DNA from: Candidatus Bathyarchaeota archaeon
GTDB lineage: Archaea; Thermoproteota; Bathyarchaeia; Bathyarchaeales; Bathycorpusculaceae
Length of the DNA: 64,000 nt
Reading direction: 5' to 3'
Assembly: GCA_026014615.1 (NCBI GenBank)
Contig: JAOZHZ010000004.1
Span: forward strand, 1-64,000
In this document: piece after piece, positions 4,138-37,998 of the stretch
Position numbering within the stretch: the first letter of the stretch is position 1
Layout: every line of letters begins with the position of its first letter
Made by a program: the position numbers and the translations under genes
The notes under the pieces: model-generated
What the model was told of the DNA's origin: nothing
Database searches by the model: none
Seen by the model: the letters and a program-made list of their open reading frames with translations, nothing else

Positions 4138-6435
4138 TCAGTCATATTTCCGCGGGTTCTGTCTATACTTAATAACGAATAATGCAACTAAACTGAATGC
4201 TGCCACCGCAGCCGCTACCCACATAAACTCACCTAAGCCGCCGCCAATTGAGGGAAAGTTGCTGCCTGCATTTTGTGGCTCAACCGAAGGTGTGGATTGG
4301 TCTAGTGAATTGGAAGAAGAACCCGTTGGCTGAGTAGCTGAAGGGTTACCTGTGCCTGTAACCTCGAACCATATCGTCTCAGACGCACAGGCACCACCAT
4401 TTGAATCTCCAGCATACACTGTGAGACGGTGAACGCCCGCGGACAAACCAGCTAATAGGGTGCCTTCTTCTTCGTGCAGCGTTACGTTTGTGTTGCCATC
4501 CAAGCTATAGCCAGTCCAGGAAGTGTTTGCGGTGGCAAAGAAAGACAGCGGCACACGACCAGAAGTGTAGGTTGTGTTTGCAGGCTGCAGTATAGTCAGT
4601 TGATATTTCATGTTAACAGGCTTACTAAGTGGGTAATGGTCTATGTTGATTTCGTTTATGGCTACGGGTGCATCATAGATTCCTATCTCGGTTACCTCGT
4701 GGGCGGTGGGGTATTTACTTTCATAGGCGCCCCAGAAGTTCCCTTCGCTTCCGTCATCCCACTTATTGAGAGTATCTCCTCCAGGGTAGACTTGGTAAGA
4801 GTTACCGCCCATGTTGTTGATGAAATTGTTGTGGTAAATTTTATTGTTGCCTACGGTTCCGCTTATGGTTAACGCCCAAGTTTTGGTCCAAGCAATATTG
4901 TTGCCAGTTAAGACGTTGTTAAAGGATTCCCCAAGGTGGAAGCCTTTTTCTCGACTATACAAAACGGAATTTTCAAAAACCATGTTGTCTCCGCCCCTGT
5001 TAACGACAAAGCCTTGTTTGCTGTGGGCGATATAGTTACGTGTGAAGTTGTTGTTGCTGCAGTCGTCTAAGTGAATACCGAAGTTCTCGTTGAAGTTTAG
5101 CTTGTTTCCCGAAACCTCGTTGAACTTCGCCGCCTCCATGTATACGCCGTCGGAATTGTTAGCGATTAGATTTCCTGAAATCGTGTTGCCGGAGGCGCCT
5201 TTCAGGATGATACTGGCTTGGTTGTTGGTTATGATGTTTCGGGTTATGGTGGAGTTTGTGACCTCCATCAAAAGCATAGCCTGCCGTCGGTCAGTAATGT
5301 TGAGGTTTTGGACGGTGATGTTTGAACAACTCAAGAGAACAACGTACCCCACATCGACGGGCACAGTCTTGTCGGTTTGCCATATCCAGTAACATATGGG
5401 CGTGCCGTCTACAATGTTGGAATAGTCGAACTCGTCGATGAAGCGGTCCTCAAAATTCACGTCGTACGTGTTGTTGTCCAGCCGATTACTCGTGAACGTG
5501 TTAGGTCTGGAGTACGTGACGATGCCGTGGGTGTTGTTTGCAATGCTGTTTGAGAGGATGTTATTGTTTTGGGAGTTATAGAGGGCGATGCCTTTGTCGT
5601 TGAAAGTTATGTTATTGTTGGCAACTGTGGAGCGGTTGGTGGAAATCAAAAGAACGCCCTGCCCGTTGTTTGCCAAATTCAGATTCCACGCAGAAATGCC
5701 TGTGCAGTTGATTAACGCGACGTACCCCACATCCGCAGGCACAGTTCGGTCATGCTGGTTTACCCAGTAACACACGGGGTTACCATTCACCGTGTTCGAA
5801 TAGTCAATGTCGTTGACAAAGTCTGCGGCGGAGGTCGCGTTTTCACAATCAACCAACAAGTTTGGTCCTTTGCCAGTCAAGGAGTTGTTTCTTAAGACGT
5901 TGTTTGTTGAGTTATCAATGGAAATGCCGCTGCCGGAAACGAAAACGTTGCCAAAAACAAGGTTTCTTGTCGCGTGGTCGGTTAAGGCTACGCCTGTTTG
6001 AGTGTTGGTGAACTTGTTTTGGCTGATTGTGCAGTTGTAGGAGCTGCTGAGCAAAACGCCGCGGTTTAACCCGTCAACGTGCAGGTTTTTGACTGTTACG
6101 TTGGTTCTGCCAATCAACGCCACCGCGCTTTGAGCGGACCAAGTGGGCAAGGTCCGTTGTATTGTGTAACCTGCACCGTCAATTACGATGTTGTTACGTT
6201 GGACTTCAAGGACATATTGTGTTATGTTTTCAGTGAGGGTATAGACGTTGCCCACTTGGTTTATGGCATCGATTTGGGGTGAGAGGGTGCCGTCTGCGTT
6301 GATTGTAAGGGTGTCTAAGGGGGGATAAAGCCCTACAAAGTTTGCTTGTGCAACCTTAACCGACTGAAAAGCCAGAGCCGCAGGGCACAAGAGCAACAAC
6401 ACAGACAGGAACACAAACGCTTTTTTCTTAATCAA
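4138..6435 (-). CDS. Surface-anchored right-handed beta-helix (NosD-like) protein
   Basis: About 765 residues. An N-terminal signal peptide (FVFLSVLLLLCPAALAFQ) is followed by many NosD/PbH1-type repeats such as GVALTDHATRNLVFGNVF and NNNILSNSIANNTHGIV, between about 60 and 590. An Ig-like domain follows (YQLTILQPANTTYTSGRVPL), then a Ser/Thr-rich linker and a C-terminal membrane anchor (MWVAAAVAAFSLVALFVI) with a basic tail. A GGAGGT site places the start at TTG 6435, inside the end of the upstream gene. It is predicted to sit on the cell surface; a carbohydrate-related or adhesive role is possible. True NosD copper insertion is unlikely without nos genes. Confidence 0.8.
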   Translation of the reverse strand: MIKKKAFVFLSVLLLLCPAALAFQSVKVAQANFVGLYPPLDTLTINADGTLSPQIDAINQVGNVYTLTENITQYVLEVQRNNIVIDGAGYTIQRTLPTWSAQSAVALIGRTNVTVKNLHVDGLNRGVLLSSSYNCTISQNKFTNTQTGVALTDHATRNLVFGNVFVSGSGISIDNSTNNVLRNNSLTGKGPNLLVDCENATSAADFVNDIDYSNTVNGNPVCYWVNQHDRTVPADVGYVALINCTGISAWNLNLANNGQGVLLISTNRSTVANNNITFNDKGIALYNSQNNNILSNSIANNTHGIVTYSRPNTFTSNRLDNNTYDVNFEDRFIDEFDYSNIVDGTPICYWIWQTDKTVPVDVGYVVLLSCSNITVQNLNITDRRQAMLLMEVTNSTITRNIITNNQASIILKGASGNTISGNLIANNSDGVYMEAAKFNEVSGNKLNFNENFGIHLDDCSNNNFTRNYIAHSKQGFVVNRGGDNMVFENSVLYSREKGFHLGESFNNVLTGNNIAWTKTWALTISGTVGNNKIYHNNFINNMGGNSYQVYPGGDTLNKWDDGSEGNFWGAYESKYPTAHEVTEIGIYDAPVAINEINIDHYPLSKPVNMKYQLTILQPANTTYTSGRVPLSFFATANTSWTGYSLDGNTNVTLHEEEGTLLAGLSAGVHRLTVYAGDSNGGACASETIWFEVTGTGNPSATQPTGSSSNSLDQSTPSVEPQNAGSNFPSIGGGLGEFMWVAAAVAAFSLVALFVIKYRQNPRKYD

Positions 6436-30950: not shown

Positions 30951-31038
30951 GGCGCCTTACAGTTAGGTGGTCCTGACACCGGACTTCAAATCTGGTGAGT
31001 CCGAGAAGGATTCGGGGTTCAATTCCCCTTGGGCGCCG
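30951..31038 (+). tRNA. selC: tRNA-Sec (anticodon TCA)
   Basis: The 88-base RNA folds as archaeal tRNA-Sec. The acceptor is 9 bp, GGCGCCTTA/TTGGGCGCC (one U-U mismatch). The D stem is 6 bp, GTTAGG/CCTGAC with loop TGGT. The anticodon stem is CCGGA/TCTGG with loop CTTCAAA and anticodon TCA (30986-30988). The variable arm is GAGTCC/GGATTC with loop GAGAA. The T stem is 4 bp, GGGG/CCCC, loop TTCAATT. The 9+4 geometry and long D stem set it apart from tRNA-Ser and from a TCA suppressor. Discriminator G31038; the terminal A of CCA is not encoded. Confidence 0.95.
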
Positions 31039-31174: not shown

Positions 31175-32077
31175 TTAAGCTTTTTTGGAGGCTTGTTCTT
31201 TGCAGAATTCCCAAAAAACCTCAGCGGCTTTTAAAAGGTTCCTTTTTGGTCGGAGCAGGTAAAGTTTTCGTGTGGAATCTGCGCCTTCGAGCTTAAGGAT
31301 CGCGACTAAACCTGCTGCTTGAGCTTTTTTGGAGGCAATTGAGGATACAATGCTTATGCCTATTCCTTCGGAGACAGCGGTGATTACTGATTCGGTGCTG
31401 CCTAGCTCCAGCGGAGTTTTAAGTTTTGAGGCGGGTATCCCTGAGACTTCAAGTACGCGTTCAATTTCTGCTCGGGTGCCAGAGGTTTCTTCGCGATTTA
31501 TGTAGGGGTACTTGAGGATTTCTTGCAGTGAGACAGATTTGCGGCTTGCAAGTTCATGCCCACGGGGGACAACGAGCACCAGTTCTTCTCTGCCGATTTC
31601 TATGGCTTCGAACCTTTCATCATAACCACGGATGCTACCTGTAGCTGCAAAGTCCACATCATTAGCCAGCAGACTCAGCAGACTGGTTACGCTGTCTTCA
31701 GTTTTTGTTTTAAATCTGACGATAGAGTTGTTTTTTTGGAATTCGACAATAAGGCTAGGAAGCAGGTGTTCTTCGGGTATGGTGCTAGCGGCGATTTTTA
31801 TGACACCTGTAAGTTTGTGTTTTGTTGAGGAGATTTGGGCTTTAGCGTTTTCCACGGTATACAGTATTTTTTCCGCGGCTTCTTGAAGAATAGCGCCTGA
31901 CTCAGTAACTTCAACGCCTTTTATGGTACGTTTTAGAAGTTGCGCGTCAAAGTACTCTTCCAAGGTGGCGATGTGGTTGCTGACGGTTCCTTGACTTGTG
32001 TGGAGTTCTTTGGCGGCTAAGGAGAAACTACCGATTCGCGCCACGGTTAGGAACGTTTTTAGATAATCAAGTCGCAT
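31175..32077 (-). CDS. LysR-family transcriptional regulator
   Basis: A 300-residue LysR regulator. The N-terminal helix-turn-helix reads LKTFLTVARIGSFSLAAKEL then TSQGTVSNHIATLEEYFDAQ (about 5-45), followed by a type-2 periplasmic-binding-fold effector domain (VLVVPRGHELASRKSVSL, TVSEGIGISIVSSIAS). Length is standard. LysR proteins usually act on a divergent gene; here the divergent region (32078-32307) leads to the DUF3343 group, so it may control the selenium island. The effector is unknown. CysB-like sulphur sensing is one possibility but not shown. Confidence 0.88.
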   Translation of the reverse strand: MRLDYLKTFLTVARIGSFSLAAKELHTSQGTVSNHIATLEEYFDAQLLKRTIKGVEVTESGAILQEAAEKILYTVENAKAQISSTKHKLTGVIKIAASTIPEEHLLPSLIVEFQKNNSIVRFKTKTEDSVTSLLSLLANDVDFAATGSIRGYDERFEAIEIGREELVLVVPRGHELASRKSVSLQEILKYPYINREETSGTRAEIERVLEVSGIPASKLKTPLELGSTESVITAVSEGIGISIVSSIASKKAQAAGLVAILKLEGADSTRKLYLLRPKRNLLKAAEVFWEFCKEQASKKA

Positions 32078-32307
32078 GAGCTCTCTGCCTCTGTATAGTC
32101 GAAGAGGTTATTTATTTTTTCAGCAGGTGCTTATATATTGTTTCTTTGTAGGCGCGGAAGGTTTCGGGCGCTGTTTTAAAGGGAGGGATTTTATGTCTTT
32201 GGAGTTCTGCGCGGTTTTTTGCGTTGATTTTGGGAATAGGCAGCAAAAGGCATATCAATTAGAAATCTTAATACGCCGAAATAGAAATCCCAAAGGGAGA
32301 AGTAGGG
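32078..32307 (+). promoter_or_regulatory. Divergent promoter region with a possible leader peptide
   Basis: A TATA-like GCTTATATATTG lies near 32128-32139. A strong ribosome site, AAAGGGAGGG (32178-32187), precedes ATG 32193, whose frame (MSLEFCAVFCVDFGNRQQK) runs out of frame into the small gene at 32308 and stops near 32438. It may be a leader peptide, an upstream ORF, or chance. A second site, AAAGGGAG, precedes ATG 32308. Confidence 0.4.
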
Positions 32308-32515
32308 ATGTCAAAATACATAACTATATTAGTAGCTGGCTTAATCGCCGGAGCCTTGGCAGCTATAGCACAAGTTCCTTTCTATGCCCAAACACCATAC
32401 GCCTGCGGGATATGTGGCTTACCACGGCAGAGACATAGTAAACTGGCGCGTCAATGTGGAAATAGGATGGAATCTGGGAGTCGCCCCCGTGTCCATCATA
32501 GCTCCAGTGAGTTAA
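32308..32515 (+). CDS. Small membrane protein with a one-base frameshift
   Basis: ATG 32308 opens MSKYITILVAGLIAGALAAI, a single membrane helix, then AQVPFYAQTPYACG. Removing one G from GGG (32407-32409) restores a coding frame, YVAYHGRDIVNWRVNVEIGW, ending APVS at TAA 32513-32515, for about 68 residues in total. Without the fix the frame gives a basic, non-protein-like tail to 32592. The fix makes a small anchored protein with an extracytoplasmic tail; family not recognised. Sequencing error or recent decay cannot be told apart. Confidence 0.5.
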
Positions 32516-32593
32516 AGATGAAAGGCCGCAGTTCACAATCGTTATCGAAAAGAAATAACGCCGCGAACTTGTCGCTTATGTGGAGCGAATAGG

Positions 32594-33118
32594 TTGACTA
32601 AAAAAGACAAAACTGAAAGAGCAATTGTTCTGCTGAAAGATGTACGGGAAAGCATGAAAGCGGAGCGAATCCTAAAAGCAAAGGACTACGACGTGAAAAT
32701 TGTGGCGCCTCCGCCTGAAGTGCGAATCGGATGCGACTTAGCCATAGAAATCAACATCGTAGACAGTTTCGGAGTACAAAACACCCTAAAAAACAACAGA
32801 ATCAACCCGATAAACGTGGTTCCATTAAGCAACATGCAGCTAAAGCCACTTGAAATCGTCAAGGAAACAGACCTCGGAGAATACCTCATGATTAAAGCTG
32901 GACACATGAAACTAACGTTCAACAAAAACAGCGGTGAAATCGTCAACGTTTCGGGGGGTGGGTGCCCCGACATTCCCTTCTTGGCGTTGAGCATGGTCGG
33001 CAAAACCATCGAAAGCACCAAAAGACCAGATGAGTTAGGCTACACGCTCTGCGCTTATATGCTGGAGAAAGCCTACGAACGAGCACTTCAACTACGCAAG
33101 GAGAAACAACCATGCTAG
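32594..33118 (+). CDS. DUF3343 (putative Se/S carrier-like) protein with extra domain
   Basis: The 174-residue protein opens with a DUF3343-like domain: RAIVLLKDVRESMKAERILK, then YDVKIVAPPPEVRIGCDLAI (about 10-50). DUF3343 (PF11823) is described as a Se/S carrier-like family linked to selenium genes in comparative genomics. Residues 95-174 form a second part, IVNVSGGGCPDIPFLALSM, with Cys residues that could take part in transfer. The start is TTG 32594. The stop overlaps the next start (ATG 33112), so the genes are coupled. A role in selenium delivery is inferred from context. Confidence 0.6.
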   Translation: MTKKDKTERAIVLLKDVRESMKAERILKAKDYDVKIVAPPPEVRIGCDLAIEINIVDSFGVQNTLKNNRINPINVVPLSNMQLKPLEIVKETDLGEYLMIKAGHMKLTFNKNSGEIVNVSGGGCPDIPFLALSMVGKTIESTKRPDELGYTLCAYMLEKAYERALQLRKEKQPC

Positions 33119-34116: not shown

Positions 34117-34467
34117 ATGGTTAAGTTTACAGTGTTAATTAATGAATCACCGATTGCTAAAGAACGCGCGTTTACAGGACTCAGGTTCGCAACAACCGCC
34201 GTGCTTGAGGGGCACGAAGTTAACGTTTTCTTGATGGAAAACGGCGTGTATCTAGCCAAGAAAGGTCAGAACCCGTCCGCCGACGCCCCAAACCTTCTGG
34301 AATACTTGGAAGAGTTGATTAACAGCGACGTTGAAGTGAAAGCCTGCGTTGTCTGCTGCCAAGCTCGAGGCTTAACTGAAGACGACCTTCTTGCAGGCGT
34401 AAAAATTGCTTCCATGCATGAACTGGTCGAGTGGACAGCAGCCTCAGACAAAACAATAGTTTTCTAG
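34117..34467 (+). CDS. DsrE-family sulphur/selenium relay protein
   Basis: The 116-residue protein has the DsrE/F fold: GLRFATTAVLEGHEVNVFLM, then VEVKACVVCCQARGLTEDDL (about 70-90), which carries three close Cys residues at the usual persulphide position, and a C-terminal SMHELVEWTAASDKTIVF. DsrE-type proteins pass persulphide sulphur between carriers. It is followed 9 bases later by a TusA-like gene, a usual partner. Near selD, it may carry selenium instead of, or besides, sulphur; that is inference. Confidence 0.85.
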   Translation: MVKFTVLINESPIAKERAFTGLRFATTAVLEGHEVNVFLMENGVYLAKKGQNPSADAPNLLEYLEELINSDVEVKACVVCCQARGLTEDDLLAGVKIASMHELVEWTAASDKTIVF

Positions 34468-34853: not shown

Positions 34854-36140
34854 ATGGCAGAAAAATATGTTAATTTATGGACAAGCCTAGGAATAGACCT
34901 TGAAAAACACAACCAACTCTTAGCGGTTTTACCCCAAATCTACACCGACCTCGTTTTATCCCAAAAAAACAGGCCCAAAAAGATGGATTACTTTGACTTT
35001 GTTATCTCTGAAATTCACGGGTTGCGAGTCGATGAACTAGATAAACTTCGAAAAGAAGGAAACAAAATAATCGGAGCCTTCTGTCTTTACGCGCCCGAAG
35101 AGCTCGCCTACGCAGCAAACGCAACCATGGTGGGCTTGTGTGGAGGCGCCGACTTCTCAATTCCCGATGCAGAGGCGGTTTTGCCCCGAAACTTATGCCC
35201 GCTCATAAAGTCGTTCTACGGTTTCAAAATCGGCTTAACATGCCCATATTTCCAGTGCTGCGATATGCTTGTTGGAGAAACCACATGCGACGGCAAAAAG
35301 AAAGTGTATGAACTTTTGGATGAGCATGTGCCAACTTACGTGATTGAAGTCCCCCACAAACCCGACACTGAACAGGGAAGAAGCCTGTGGCTGAAGGAAC
35401 TTGAAGAGTTCAAAGCACAACTGGAAAAGCTGACGGGAAACACGATAACCGCCGAAAAACTGAAGGCATCCATTGAGCTGATTAACGGCAAACGCAAAGC
35501 CCTCAAGCGCTTATCCGAACTACGCAAAGCCTCACCAGCACCAATCAGCGGCTTAGACGCCTTAATCGTTATCCAAATCGGCTTCTATGACGACGTGAAA
35601 CGGTTCACCGCCAAAGTCAACGAACTCTGCGACGAACTCGAAGAACGCGTCAAAAACGGCATCGGCGTCACCGACAAAAACGCCCCCAGACTTATGGTTT
35701 CGGGCTGCCCCATGGCTGTGCCTAACTGGAAGCTTCCCAGCATTGCAGAATCCGCAGGCGCATCCATAGTCGTCGAAGAAAGCTGCGTCGGCACCCGATA
35801 CTTCACCGACATGGTTGAACCCAAAGGCGACAGCATAAACGACCTGCTTGAAGCATTAGTTGAGAAATACGCCAAGATTCCCTGTTCATGCTTCACTCCA
35901 AACGATGCCCGCGTGGAAAGCGTAGAAAACCTCGCCAAGGACTTCAACGTCGACGGCGTAGTCTACTACACCCTACAATTCTGTCACAGCTACAACGTCG
36001 AAGCCGTCAAAGTTGGAAAAGCACTCAAATCCAAAGACGTACCGATGCTAAAGATCGAAACAGACTACACCATGGAAGACGCCGAACAAATCCGCACAAG
36101 ACTTGAAGCATTCCTTGAAATGATTCGTGGGAAAAAGTAA
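34854..36140 (+). CDS. Double-cubane-cluster reductase (HgdB/BcrB-C-like family)
   Basis: A 428-residue member of the 2-hydroxyacyl-CoA dehydratase D-like family, nearest the double-cubane-cluster reductases. Diagnostic segments are GAFCLYAPEELAYAANATMV, TCPYFQCCDMLVGETTCDGK, VSGCPMAVPNWKLPSIAES, EESCVGTRYFTDMV, KIPCSCFTPND and LQFCHSYNVEAVKVGKALKS. The Cys set fits a [8Fe-9S] double cubane. These enzymes reduce small molecules at very low potential with ATP-driven electron injection. The substrate here is unknown; proximity to selD and the carriers points to selenium or sulphur reduction (inference). Confidence 0.85.
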   Translation: MAEKYVNLWTSLGIDLEKHNQLLAVLPQIYTDLVLSQKNRPKKMDYFDFVISEIHGLRVDELDKLRKEGNKIIGAFCLYAPEELAYAANATMVGLCGGADFSIPDAEAVLPRNLCPLIKSFYGFKIGLTCPYFQCCDMLVGETTCDGKKKVYELLDEHVPTYVIEVPHKPDTEQGRSLWLKELEEFKAQLEKLTGNTITAEKLKASIELINGKRKALKRLSELRKASPAPISGLDALIVIQIGFYDDVKRFTAKVNELCDELEERVKNGIGVTDKNAPRLMVSGCPMAVPNWKLPSIAESAGASIVVEESCVGTRYFTDMVEPKGDSINDLLEALVEKYAKIPCSCFTPNDARVESVENLAKDFNVDGVVYYTLQFCHSYNVEAVKVGKALKSKDVPMLKIETDYTMEDAEQIRTRLEAFLEMIRGKK

Positions 36141-36182: not shown

Positions 36183-36956
36183 TTGGTTGTAGCAGGTGTT
36201 GATGCTGGTTCCGCGGCGACTAAAGCTGCCATTGTTAAAGATGGAAAGATTTTGGCTTATGCCATTGTGCCCACAGGTGCTAATGGGAAAAACGCTTCTG
36301 TGAATGCTTTGGAAAAAGCGTTGGCACTTGCGAAGCTGACCCGCGAAGACCTAAAGAATATTATGTCAACGGGATACGGCAGACGTAATGTAGCGTTTGC
36401 GGATAATGCAATAACGGAAATTACGGCTCATGCGAAGGGAGCCAAATCCCTGTTTCCCCAAGCCAAGACCATAATCGACATAGGTGGGCAAGACAGCAAA
36501 GTCATAGGTCTTGACGAAGAAGGACGCATAAACAATTTTGTCATGAACGACAAATGCGCTGCAGGAACAGGCAGATTCTTAGAGGTCATGGCACGAACTT
36601 TAGAGGTAACACTTCAAGATTTAGGCAAGCTATCCGTTTCTGCCCAAAAAACCGCAAAAATCAGCAGCATGTGCACCGTTTTCGCAGAATCCGAAGTAGT
36701 TTCCCTGATTGCTCAAGGCGAAAGCAGAGAAGCAATTATTGCAGGGTTACATGAAGCCATTTCGAAACGCATTGCCAGTATGGTTAAGCAGGTTGGTTTG
36801 AGACGCGAAGTGGTTTTTACAGGCGGAGTCGCCAAGAACATCGGTATGAAAGCGGGGTTGGAACGGGTTTTTGGTTTAAAGATTAATATCCCTACGGAAC
36901 CTCAAATTATAGGTGCTCTTGGGGCAGCGTTAATAGCTGAAGAGAGCATAAGTTAA
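36183..36956 (+). CDS. ATPase activator of the double-cubane reductase (HgdC-like)
   Basis: A 257-residue ASKHA-family activator. It has the phosphate loop VVAGVDAGSAATKAAIV, IIDIGGQDSKVIGLDEEG, and the Cys residues NDKCAAGTGRF and SSMCTVFAESEVVS that hold a bridging [4Fe-4S] cluster in the dimer; the end is IGALGAALIAEE. ATP hydrolysis lowers the electron potential for its partner at 34854. The TTG start at 36183 follows the reductase stop by about 40 bases. The gene lies 22 bases before selD, in one operon. Confidence 0.9.
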   Translation: MVVAGVDAGSAATKAAIVKDGKILAYAIVPTGANGKNASVNALEKALALAKLTREDLKNIMSTGYGRRNVAFADNAITEITAHAKGAKSLFPQAKTIIDIGGQDSKVIGLDEEGRINNFVMNDKCAAGTGRFLEVMARTLEVTLQDLGKLSVSAQKTAKISSMCTVFAESEVVSLIAQGESREAIIAGLHEAISKRIASMVKQVGLRREVVFTGGVAKNIGMKAGLERVFGLKINIPTEPQIIGALGAALIAEESIS

Positions 36957-36978: not shown

Positions 36979-37998
36979 ATGGAGTACAGGCTCACCAAAG
37001 TTGTGCCAGTGCACGGTTGAAGCTGCAAGCTCCCACAGTACCAGCTGGATAAACTTCTCGCCAGTGCCGGCGTCTCAATTGCGCCTTCACCTGAGTTGTT
37101 AGCTGGGCCGTGGGAGAACGCCAGCGCTGTTCGGGTAACAGGAGACGTTGCGTTACTGAACACGCTGGACTTTTTCACGCCCATTGTGGATGAGCCTGAA
37201 ATTCAAGGCAGAATTGCAGCCAGCAACGTAACCAGCGACATATACACCATGGGCGTAGCCAAAATCGCCACCGTCCTCTCCATCATGGCGTTCCCCGAAA
37301 ACATGCCCAACGAACTCGCAGTCGGCATGCTAAAAGGGTTCGCAGACTTCTGCAAAGAAATGGATGCCACACTTCTAGGTGGACACACAATCAGGAATCC
37401 ATGGCCTATTCTTGGAGGCGCAGCCACAGGAGTAAGTCACCCAAAAAAAATCGTCTACACACGTGGTGCAAAGCCTGAGGATAGACTGGTTTTGACCAAG
37501 CCCTTGGGGGTGCAACCTGCCATGGCTGCATACCGCATGCGCAAAGAAGAAGGAGGACAAGAATTCCTCGAAGAGATTCCAGCAGATTCGATTGAAGCAG
37601 CAGTCTCTGGCGCAATCAAACTGATGACCACTTCAAACAAACCCGTTGCAGAAATCATGCAACAAATACCCGTACACGCAGCAACAGACGTGACTGGTTT
37701 CGGTTTGAAAGGACACGCCGAAAACATGGCAAAACTCGGCGGAGTAAACCTCTTTTTCGACAAACTGCCCGTGCTCCGCGGAACACCTGCCCTTGCAGAT
37801 TTGATGGGTTATCCCCTGCTCACTGGTGAAGCAGCAGAAACTGCTGGCGACATACTGATTGCGGTTGCCAAAAAAGATTTGGGGGACTTGCTGGATGCAC
37901 TCGAGAAGCGTAAAGTGGAGCACTTTGAGGTTGGCTCTGTCTTAGAGGGAGACGGAGAAGTGCACGTTTCTGAAGAAGTTAAGGTAGTGGAAGTTTGA
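36979..37998 (+). CDS. selD: Selenophosphate synthase with in-frame TGA (Sec14)
   Basis: SelD makes selenophosphate from selenide and ATP. ATG 36979 opens MEYRLTKVVPVHG, then TGA 37018-37020, then SCKLPQYQLDKLLA. The TGA sits at the catalytic Cys/Sec position of SelD (E. coli Cys17-x-Cys19-Lys20), and Cys16 and Lys17 follow as expected. Later motifs are GGHTIRNPWPILGGAATGV and AATDVTGFGLKGHAENMA. The length of 339 residues is normal for SelD. Taking ATG 37096 as start would drop the active site. With tRNA-Sec 6 kb away, Sec14 is the natural reading. It ends the DCCP-activator operon. Confidence 0.93.

Follow-up and report, generated by a model that had tools for sequence, protein, structure and literature searches.

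A predicted selenocysteine-containing selenophosphate synthetase in a bathyarchaeon, with a UGA codon probably marked by an in-frame hairpin

Gene content around selD

The window analysed here is a stretch of 64,000 nucleotides from a Candidatus Bathyarchaeota archaeon (assembly GCA_026014615.1, contig JAOZHZ010000004.1, positions 1 to 64,000 of the forward strand), which lies in contig C17 of a 29-contig draft genome (G000; 88.8% complete, 7.4% contamination). The features noted in and around its gene for selenophosphate synthetase, selD, are listed in Table 1. The putative YedE-type transporter remnant was recognised from its position and short translation only, and no match to a YedE-type HMM was found in the window. 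In the related genome G002, at the place matching window positions 32076-32592, two adjacent ORFs match parts of TIGR04112 at scores below its cut-off.

Table 1. Features in and around selD in the window
Feature	Position	Strand	Basis or remark
tRNA-Sec gene, anticodon TCA	30951..31037	+	one of two copies in the genome; ~6 kb upstream of selD
Selenium-metabolism-associated LysR regulator	31175..32077	-	NF040786, 254.4 bits (cut-off 250)
Possible remnant of YedE-type putative selenium transporter	32311..32425	+	position and short translation only
Protein with Se/S carrier-like domain	32594..33118	+	PF11823
DsrE-family protein	34117..34467	+	PF02635
Double-cubane-cluster anaerobic reductase	34854..36140	+	NF040772
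Acyl-CoA dehydratase activase-type ATPase	36183..36956	+	TIGR00241; directly upstream of selD
selD (selenophosphate synthetase) with in-frame UGA	36979..37998	+	339 residues including predicted Sec14
Predicted Sec UGA codon (codon 14)	37018..37020	+	aligned with Cys codons in 21/21 readable non-TGA SelD genes
Proposed in-gene SECIS, long hairpin	37022..37125	+	main stem CTCCCAC..GTGGGAG, 37030-37116, starts 9 nt after UGA
selD terminal TGA, taken as true stop	37996..37998	+	TAA at same place in G001, G002 and G006

An in-frame TGA at the catalytic position of SelD

Translation of the selD frame gives MEYRLTKVVPVHG-TGA-SCKLPQYQL..., with a single internal TGA followed by 325 sense codons. When the TGA was translated as Cys, the protein scored 337 bits against NF010705 (cut-off 291) and 248.5 bits against TIGR00476 (cut-off 125), consistent with the claim of an earlier sequence-only reading that the remaining 325 codons are open and SelD-like. 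The same reading had placed the TGA at the catalytic Cys/Sec position followed by Cys and Lys, and alignments to PDB entries and to relatives confirmed this placement. The partner of residue 14 in the PDB alignments is Cys in 5l16 (within 'GCSCKLPQ'), in 3u0o ('GCGCK') and in 2yye ('GCAAK'), and Thr in Selenide, water dikinase 1 (3fd5; 'GTGCK'); the 5l16 motif is identical to that of the window once the TGA is replaced by Cys. The hallmark catalytic Cys/Sec-x-Cys-Lys is present as U14-S-C-K. By curated models and catalytic motif the protein is SelD, and it is predicted to synthesise selenophosphate.

Under translation table 11 the ORF begins at TTG 37096 and lacks residue 14 and with it the catalytic site, as the earlier reading had also pointed out. 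Codon-position differences between the window gene and its G002 counterpart (38/26/148) follow a purifying pattern. A six-frame search for conserved frames containing TGA singled out selD, the remaining listed output consisting mostly of shadow frames. General reassignment of TGA, judged unlikely from the start, is argued against on several counts: TGA ends 10 of the window's 44 mechanical ORFs with 200 aa or more (some of these ORFs are not genes), it ends selD itself, and the internal TGA alternates only with Cys codons and tracks the Sec machinery. The catalytic TGA is real and, judging from sequence comparison, is almost certainly read as Sec.

Distribution of TGA-SelD and Sec machinery in the class

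A survey of 256 genomes of the class found SelD at E<=1e-40 in 31, of which eight carry one internal TGA: G000, G001, G002 and G006 (genus g1), G172 (g19), G041 and G199 (g36) and G195 (g45). G006 is a single 2.7 Mb contig. The SelD genes of the other 23 genomes have no stop, and the codon at this site is TGC or TGT in all 21 that could be read (G129 and G139 not among these). Eight further records from relatives, some of which duplicate the surveyed genomes, have TGA in one (L034) and Cys in seven. Because the same TGA occurs in eight genomes of the class, a sequencing error is very unlikely. In a tree of 29 SelD proteins the TGA genes fall into two groups, corresponding to at least two changes between TGA and Cys in either direction. 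By placement G172 belongs to the same family as the window genome; its SelD clusters with those of the f7 genomes (73% identity to G199) rather than with those of g1, which may reflect transfer or a mis-binned contig.

The co-occurring machinery genes follow the TGA. At a threshold of E<=1e-30, SepSecS was found in 9 of 32 genomes (the 31 with SelD plus G054), namely all eight TGA-SelD genomes and G054, and in 0 of the 23 non-TGA SelD genomes; weaker matches over the lenient Pfam cut-off (e.g. G051 at 97 bits and G043 at 57 bits) were not counted. PSTK at E<=1e-15 was found in ten genomes, comprising the eight TGA-SelD genomes and G054 (frames of 706-790 aa) together with G209 (a 207-aa frame, 65 bits). 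SelB exceeded its cut-off in 6 of 60 relatives (G000, G001, G002, G006, G041 and G054), in frames whose lengths match the PSTK frames, and was also found in the PSTK-bearing proteins of G172, G195 and G199. PSTK and SelB thus share one protein or frame in all eight TGA-SelD genomes and G054.

The 732-aa fusion of the window genome has PSTK at residues 8-240, scoring below the curated cut-off (150.7 vs 290.5 bits), and aSelB at residues 276-725, where the best PDB match is 4ac9 (MJ0495-like protein / SelB). Scanned with Pfam, the PSTK-SelB proteins from G000 and from G041 showed aSelB_III and no bacterial SelB wing domain. Together with the tRNA-Sec genes described below, these genes make up the predicted archaeal Sec-decoding set (tRNA-Sec, SepSecS, PSTK and aSelB), all of which is present in the genome. 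No in-frame stops were found in the formate dehydrogenase and NiFe hydrogenase families among the matches listed for nine genomes. One genome, G054 (contig C234; an 89% complete draft), has SepSecS, PSTK-SelB and a tRNA-Sec-like gene, yet SelD was not found in it.

tRNA-Sec genes

The tRNA-Sec gene of the window has a 9/4 acceptor arrangement and a G after the acceptor, and CCA is not encoded. The second copy in the genome adjoins SepSecS and PSTK-SelB on contig C2. The two copies differ at 9 of 90 positions, with some differences keeping pairing by inspection, and each has an acceptor of 9 bp, mismatched at pair 8, and a D stem of 6 bp. Pair 8, counted linearly, is presumably the U6-U67 mismatch. 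G006, too, has one of its two copies near selD (L079:18323-18408), and the G002 copy at the corresponding place looks decayed by inspection.

RF01852 matches over the cut-off were obtained in five genomes: G000 (two copies), G001, G002, G006 (two copies) and G045. The last was rejected as a Sec genome despite its 47.2 bits, as it has no SelD or SepSecS match. Matches at E<=0.001 occurred in 59 of 60 genomes; because all 14 control genomes match at this level too, such weak matches are no evidence. Genes in G041, G195 and G054 were read by eye. ARAGORN listed no tRNA-Sec in L081 or L086; at 37.9 bits, the gene of G041 falls short of the Rfam cut-off. An apparent T-loop intron of ~20 nt was observed in these genes (G041, L081:4152-4262; G195, L205 near 8396; G054, L086 near 3519; the L205 and L086 positions are counted on the reverse strand), and a T-arm intron has been reported for Lokiarchaeota (PMC9499178). 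A pattern search of the stretches taken from G199 and G172 found no tRNA-Sec.

A second predicted selenoprotein, an HdrA-FlpD fusion

A fusion of HdrA and FlpD with two in-frame TGAs is encoded in all four genus-g1 genomes that have the machinery (G000, G001, G002 and G006), and in the window genome it adjoins the Sec cluster on contig C2. The UGA contexts, DCSI[U]IEGPRM and FMCNW[U]GYAGADRAG, are identical in the four genomes. Immediately downstream lies a paralog in which, for the three genomes compared, both codons are TGC. At UGA 2 the two copies differ in protein sequence, with SYAGADLAGISRCEYP in the Cys paralog and GYAGADRAGTSRLEYP in the UGA copy, whose codons give GCCGGC...GCCGGC without variation among four genomes. 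HdrA and FlpD of G041 and G054 showed no TGA among the matches listed. HdrA and FrhD/MvhD/VhuD are named as widespread archaeal selenoproteins in a recent review (PMC13188914).

The tandem two-UGA and Cys paralogs can be seen at L082:3027-8299. In G002 (L085; C23:128068-130376) the second copy is in two pieces with stops at the joint.

Synonymous constraint downstream of the UGA

Codon identity at synonymous sites was compared between pairs of selD genes in a set freed of repeated sequences, which comprised 8 TGA and 21 Cys genes. Not included were L115 (G129), whose N-terminus is missing, and, for want of a locus, G139 and the second copy of both G148 and G150. Cys pairs were restricted to 65-92% protein identity, so that 185 of 210 were used. 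Across codons 13-60, a range picked, like the window lengths below, after seeing the data, the six g1 pairs had identical codons at 184/227 conserved residues vs 680/1305 elsewhere, a difference of +0.29 (0.23 to 0.34 per pair). The same region in the Cys pairs gave 2509/5937 (0.423) vs 15962/38916 (0.410) elsewhere, with a mean difference of 0.011, a 95th percentile of 0.166 and a maximum of 0.238 that reaches the lower end of the g1 range. The excess was weaker in the other TGA clade, where all six pairs exceeded the remainder of the gene (0.43-0.67 vs 0.29-0.58), and was present in 13 of 16 cross-clade TGA pairs, each with 11-17 codons.

Constraint of the same kind followed UGA 2 in flpD, with 48/58 identical codons vs 26/58 in the paralog. 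After UGA 1 in hdrA it was weak (39/51 vs 40/55 in the paralog) despite a strong fold, and another hdrA region (windows from codon 411-420) was equally conserved at synonymous sites. Clear UGA-specific synonymous constraint is thus found at two of the three site types. Within hdrA, codons 413-440 (L082 about 4263-4346) reach a synonymous identity of 0.91 in a 20-codon window, in UGA and Cys copies alike.

Folding stability and covariation of the candidate hairpins

Folding stability was assessed by a codon-shuffle test with 300 synonymous shuffles per gene. Over the 36-codon stretch that follows the UGA, z averaged -3.27 in the eight TGA selD genes (range -1.49 to -4.73, seven below -2) and -0.30 in the 21 Cys genes (range -2.02 to 1.82, two below -2). 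The clade of G172, G199, G041 and G195 has a compact hairpin that was already evident in 14-codon windows (z -2.79 to -4.33). The g1 genes have a long hairpin (Table 1), and their 14- and 20-codon windows were not significant in seven of eight tests. After UGA 1 of hdrA the 20-codon z ranged from -2.8 to -5.5, and after UGA 2 in flpD the 14-codon z ranged from -3.0 to -3.6. The Cys paralog of HdrA-FlpD gave values from +1.31 to -0.94 at 14 codons and down to -1.97 at 20 codons. Stability of the RNA is thus specific to the UGA copies of selD, hdrA and flpD.

Sliding windows placed this structure next to the UGA. The window right after the UGA was the most structured in seven of the eight selD genes and joint first in the eighth (L089), and the window right after UGA 1 ranked first in all four hdrA genes. 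The windows at UGA 2 ranked fourth or better out of 99 in G000, G006 and G002; in G001 they came seventh.

Across the four g1 selD sequences 97.1% of pair cells are kept. One pair is changed on both sides, which 229 of 500 shuffles of these four sequences also reach; the case for an in-gene signal is therefore drawn from synonymous constraint and stability that go with the UGA, rather than from covariation. No evident motif is common to the hairpins of the two selD clades, hdrA and flpD. The alignment of the hdrA UGA 1 hairpin is offset by one base for G001 and served for viewing only.

Searches for known SECIS types and alternative readings

Published descriptions put the SECIS outside the coding sequence, in UTRs, for archaea and eukaryotes, and within the ORF, next to the UGA, for bacteria (PMC11881835, PMC9622424, PMC9499178). 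No Rfam SECIS family was detected at permissive thresholds in the selD region of the window, the hdrA region of the same genome or seven other selD loci. Pattern scans of twelve 500-nt 3' regions, which know published SECIS types only and were run without a positive control, returned eaSECIS-like patterns in 0/12 (0/240 shuffles), eSECIS-like patterns in 1/12 (hdrA of G000; 12/240 shuffles, 0/28 Cys genes) and, in a relaxed form, kink-turn-like patterns in 0/12 (0/28 Cys genes, 0/600 shuffles). The GAA_A kink-turn-like motif of archaeal SECIS was seen in none of the twelve 3' regions or the in-ORF hairpins. Conserved blocks in the hdrA 3' region were considered as SECIS and rejected on inspection, as they resemble the promoter of the downstream paralog and no hairpin is kept in all four genomes. 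One block is common to the 3' regions of selD in G001 and G006, and it has a similar counterpart behind the Cys-SelD gene of L035.

These searches bear on the alternative that the post-UGA hairpin is only an auxiliary, SRE-like enhancer of readthrough, with a true SECIS of a type not recognised here lying in the UTR. Precedent exists, as the SPS genes of eukaryotes have stem-loops at this place in addition to a SECIS in the 3' UTR (PMC4561486) and published archaeal SECIS sit in UTRs (PMC11881835), and the scope of the scans could have let a new type pass. However, the 3' regions of the four g1 selD genes have no common element by eye, in G002 only 38 nt separate the selD stop from a convergent gene, and the pattern scans for published types and the Rfam searches gave no SECIS above chance level. 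We regard an auxiliary role as improbable, though worth keeping in mind, and favour the hairpin as the SECIS itself.

It is very improbable that UGA 14 is read as Cys or another residue, through readthrough or a Cys-charged tRNASec, leaving a protein that is no selenoprotein. It has been proposed that in some archaea the systems for Cys and Sec engage in cross-talk (PMC8762117), but the same genomes hold a complete Sec route, the TGA occurs only where the machinery exists, and the other two UGAs fall in HdrA and VhuD-type proteins, counted among widespread archaeal selenoproteins (PMC13188914). A pseudogene or an artefact, with the TGA a true stop or a misread TGC or TGT, finds an opening only in the draft state and the completeness and contamination values of the window genome and is scarcely credible, given the same TGA in eight genomes, the single-contig G006 included, and a frame that continues for 325 codons with a purifying pattern.

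Discussion

We conclude, from comparison of genes and genomes, that this bathyarchaeon probably has a Sec-containing SelD, made by archaeal-type machinery, whose Sec UGA is marked by an in-frame hairpin acting as a SECIS in the bacterial position. A broader proposal also seems likely on balance: that in Bathyarchaeia a PSTK-aSelB machinery of archaeal/eukaryotic type is guided by an in-ORF SECIS after each UGA, with a Sec UGA and a stop UGA in one mRNA. Both Sec insertion and the sufficiency of the post-UGA hairpin as a SECIS are what we infer from these patterns.

In the proposed mechanism, SelD would convert selenide and ATP to selenophosphate. Ser-tRNASec would be phosphorylated by PSTK and converted by SepSecS with selenophosphate supplied by SelD itself, the PSTK and SepSecS steps being established for archaea (PMC9499178). 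The fused aSelB would then deliver Sec-tRNA to the UGA, at which point the downstream hairpin would lie close to the ribosome; UGA 14 would specify Sec and UGA 340, further along the mRNA, a stop. The PSTK part of the fusion may channel the tRNA, and Mukai et al. suggested that it shields Sep-tRNASec from SepCysS (PMC8762117). Because the bacterial SelB tail was not found in the fusion proteins, a different contact would have to read the hairpin, and domain IV of aSelB, the fused PSTK or a further protein may provide it. In the literature the factor that binds archaeal SECIS is called unknown (PMC11881835, PMC9622424, PMC9499178), and aSelB reportedly does not bind SECIS in vitro (PMC8211752, PMC9499178), which counts against an in-gene SECIS. 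The different hairpins of the two selD clades suggest that UGA-adjacent signals evolved more than once or that their sequence drifts freely because nothing but position and stability would matter.

The Sec system of Bathyarchaeota and its PSTK-aSelB fusion have already been reported (Mukai et al. 2022, PMC8762117; PMC9499178), and the system described here resembles that of Mukai et al. in lineage, SepSecS, fusion and the U:U mismatch in the tRNASec acceptor stem, named U6-U67 there (PMC8762117). The main text of that paper does not mention SelD, selenophosphate or SECIS, whereas here we describe a predicted Sec-SelD, a two-UGA HdrA-FlpD, two tRNA-Sec genes and a proposed in-gene signal; a HdrA selenoprotein of Bathyarchaeota may already be drawn in its figures or supplement. 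The open-licence PMC literature yielded no description of a Sec-SelD or SECIS in Bathyarchaeota or of an in-ORF SECIS in any archaeon, and a May 2026 review lists archaeal Sec use only for Methanococcales, Methanopyrales and Asgard archaea (PMC13188914). The new part is the proposed in-gene, UGA-adjacent signal, the Sec trait of the lineage being already published.

Like bacterial SECIS elements (bSECIS), the hairpins lie in the ORF directly 3' of the UGA, with a function that is here predicted; unlike them, they accompany archaeal machinery in which the bacterial SelB wing domain was not found, and they are long or otherwise different. The SepSecS/PSTK/aSelB route is shared with the Methanococcales/Methanopyrus and Asgard systems, which also have SelD, HdrA and VhuD-type selenoproteins, but the elements there are in UTRs and carry GAA_A or AUGA_GA motifs (PMC11881835, PMC11227280) that were not recognised here. 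Archaeal genes with two Sec codons are said to use a single SECIS (PMC9499178), whereas here a hairpin follows each UGA. The SRE of eukaryotic SPS genes is likewise a coding-region stem-loop near the SelD/SPS UGA, but it accompanies a 3' UTR SECIS, and none was recognised here.

If this reading is true, standard gene calling would truncate SelD and HdrA in these genomes. An archaeal lineage that combines the bacterial SECIS position with archaeal machinery would break the rule of UTR versus ORF placement, would offer a new handle on what reads the Sec signal in Archaea, and would bear on the relation of bacterial SECIS, eukaryotic SRE and UTR SECIS.
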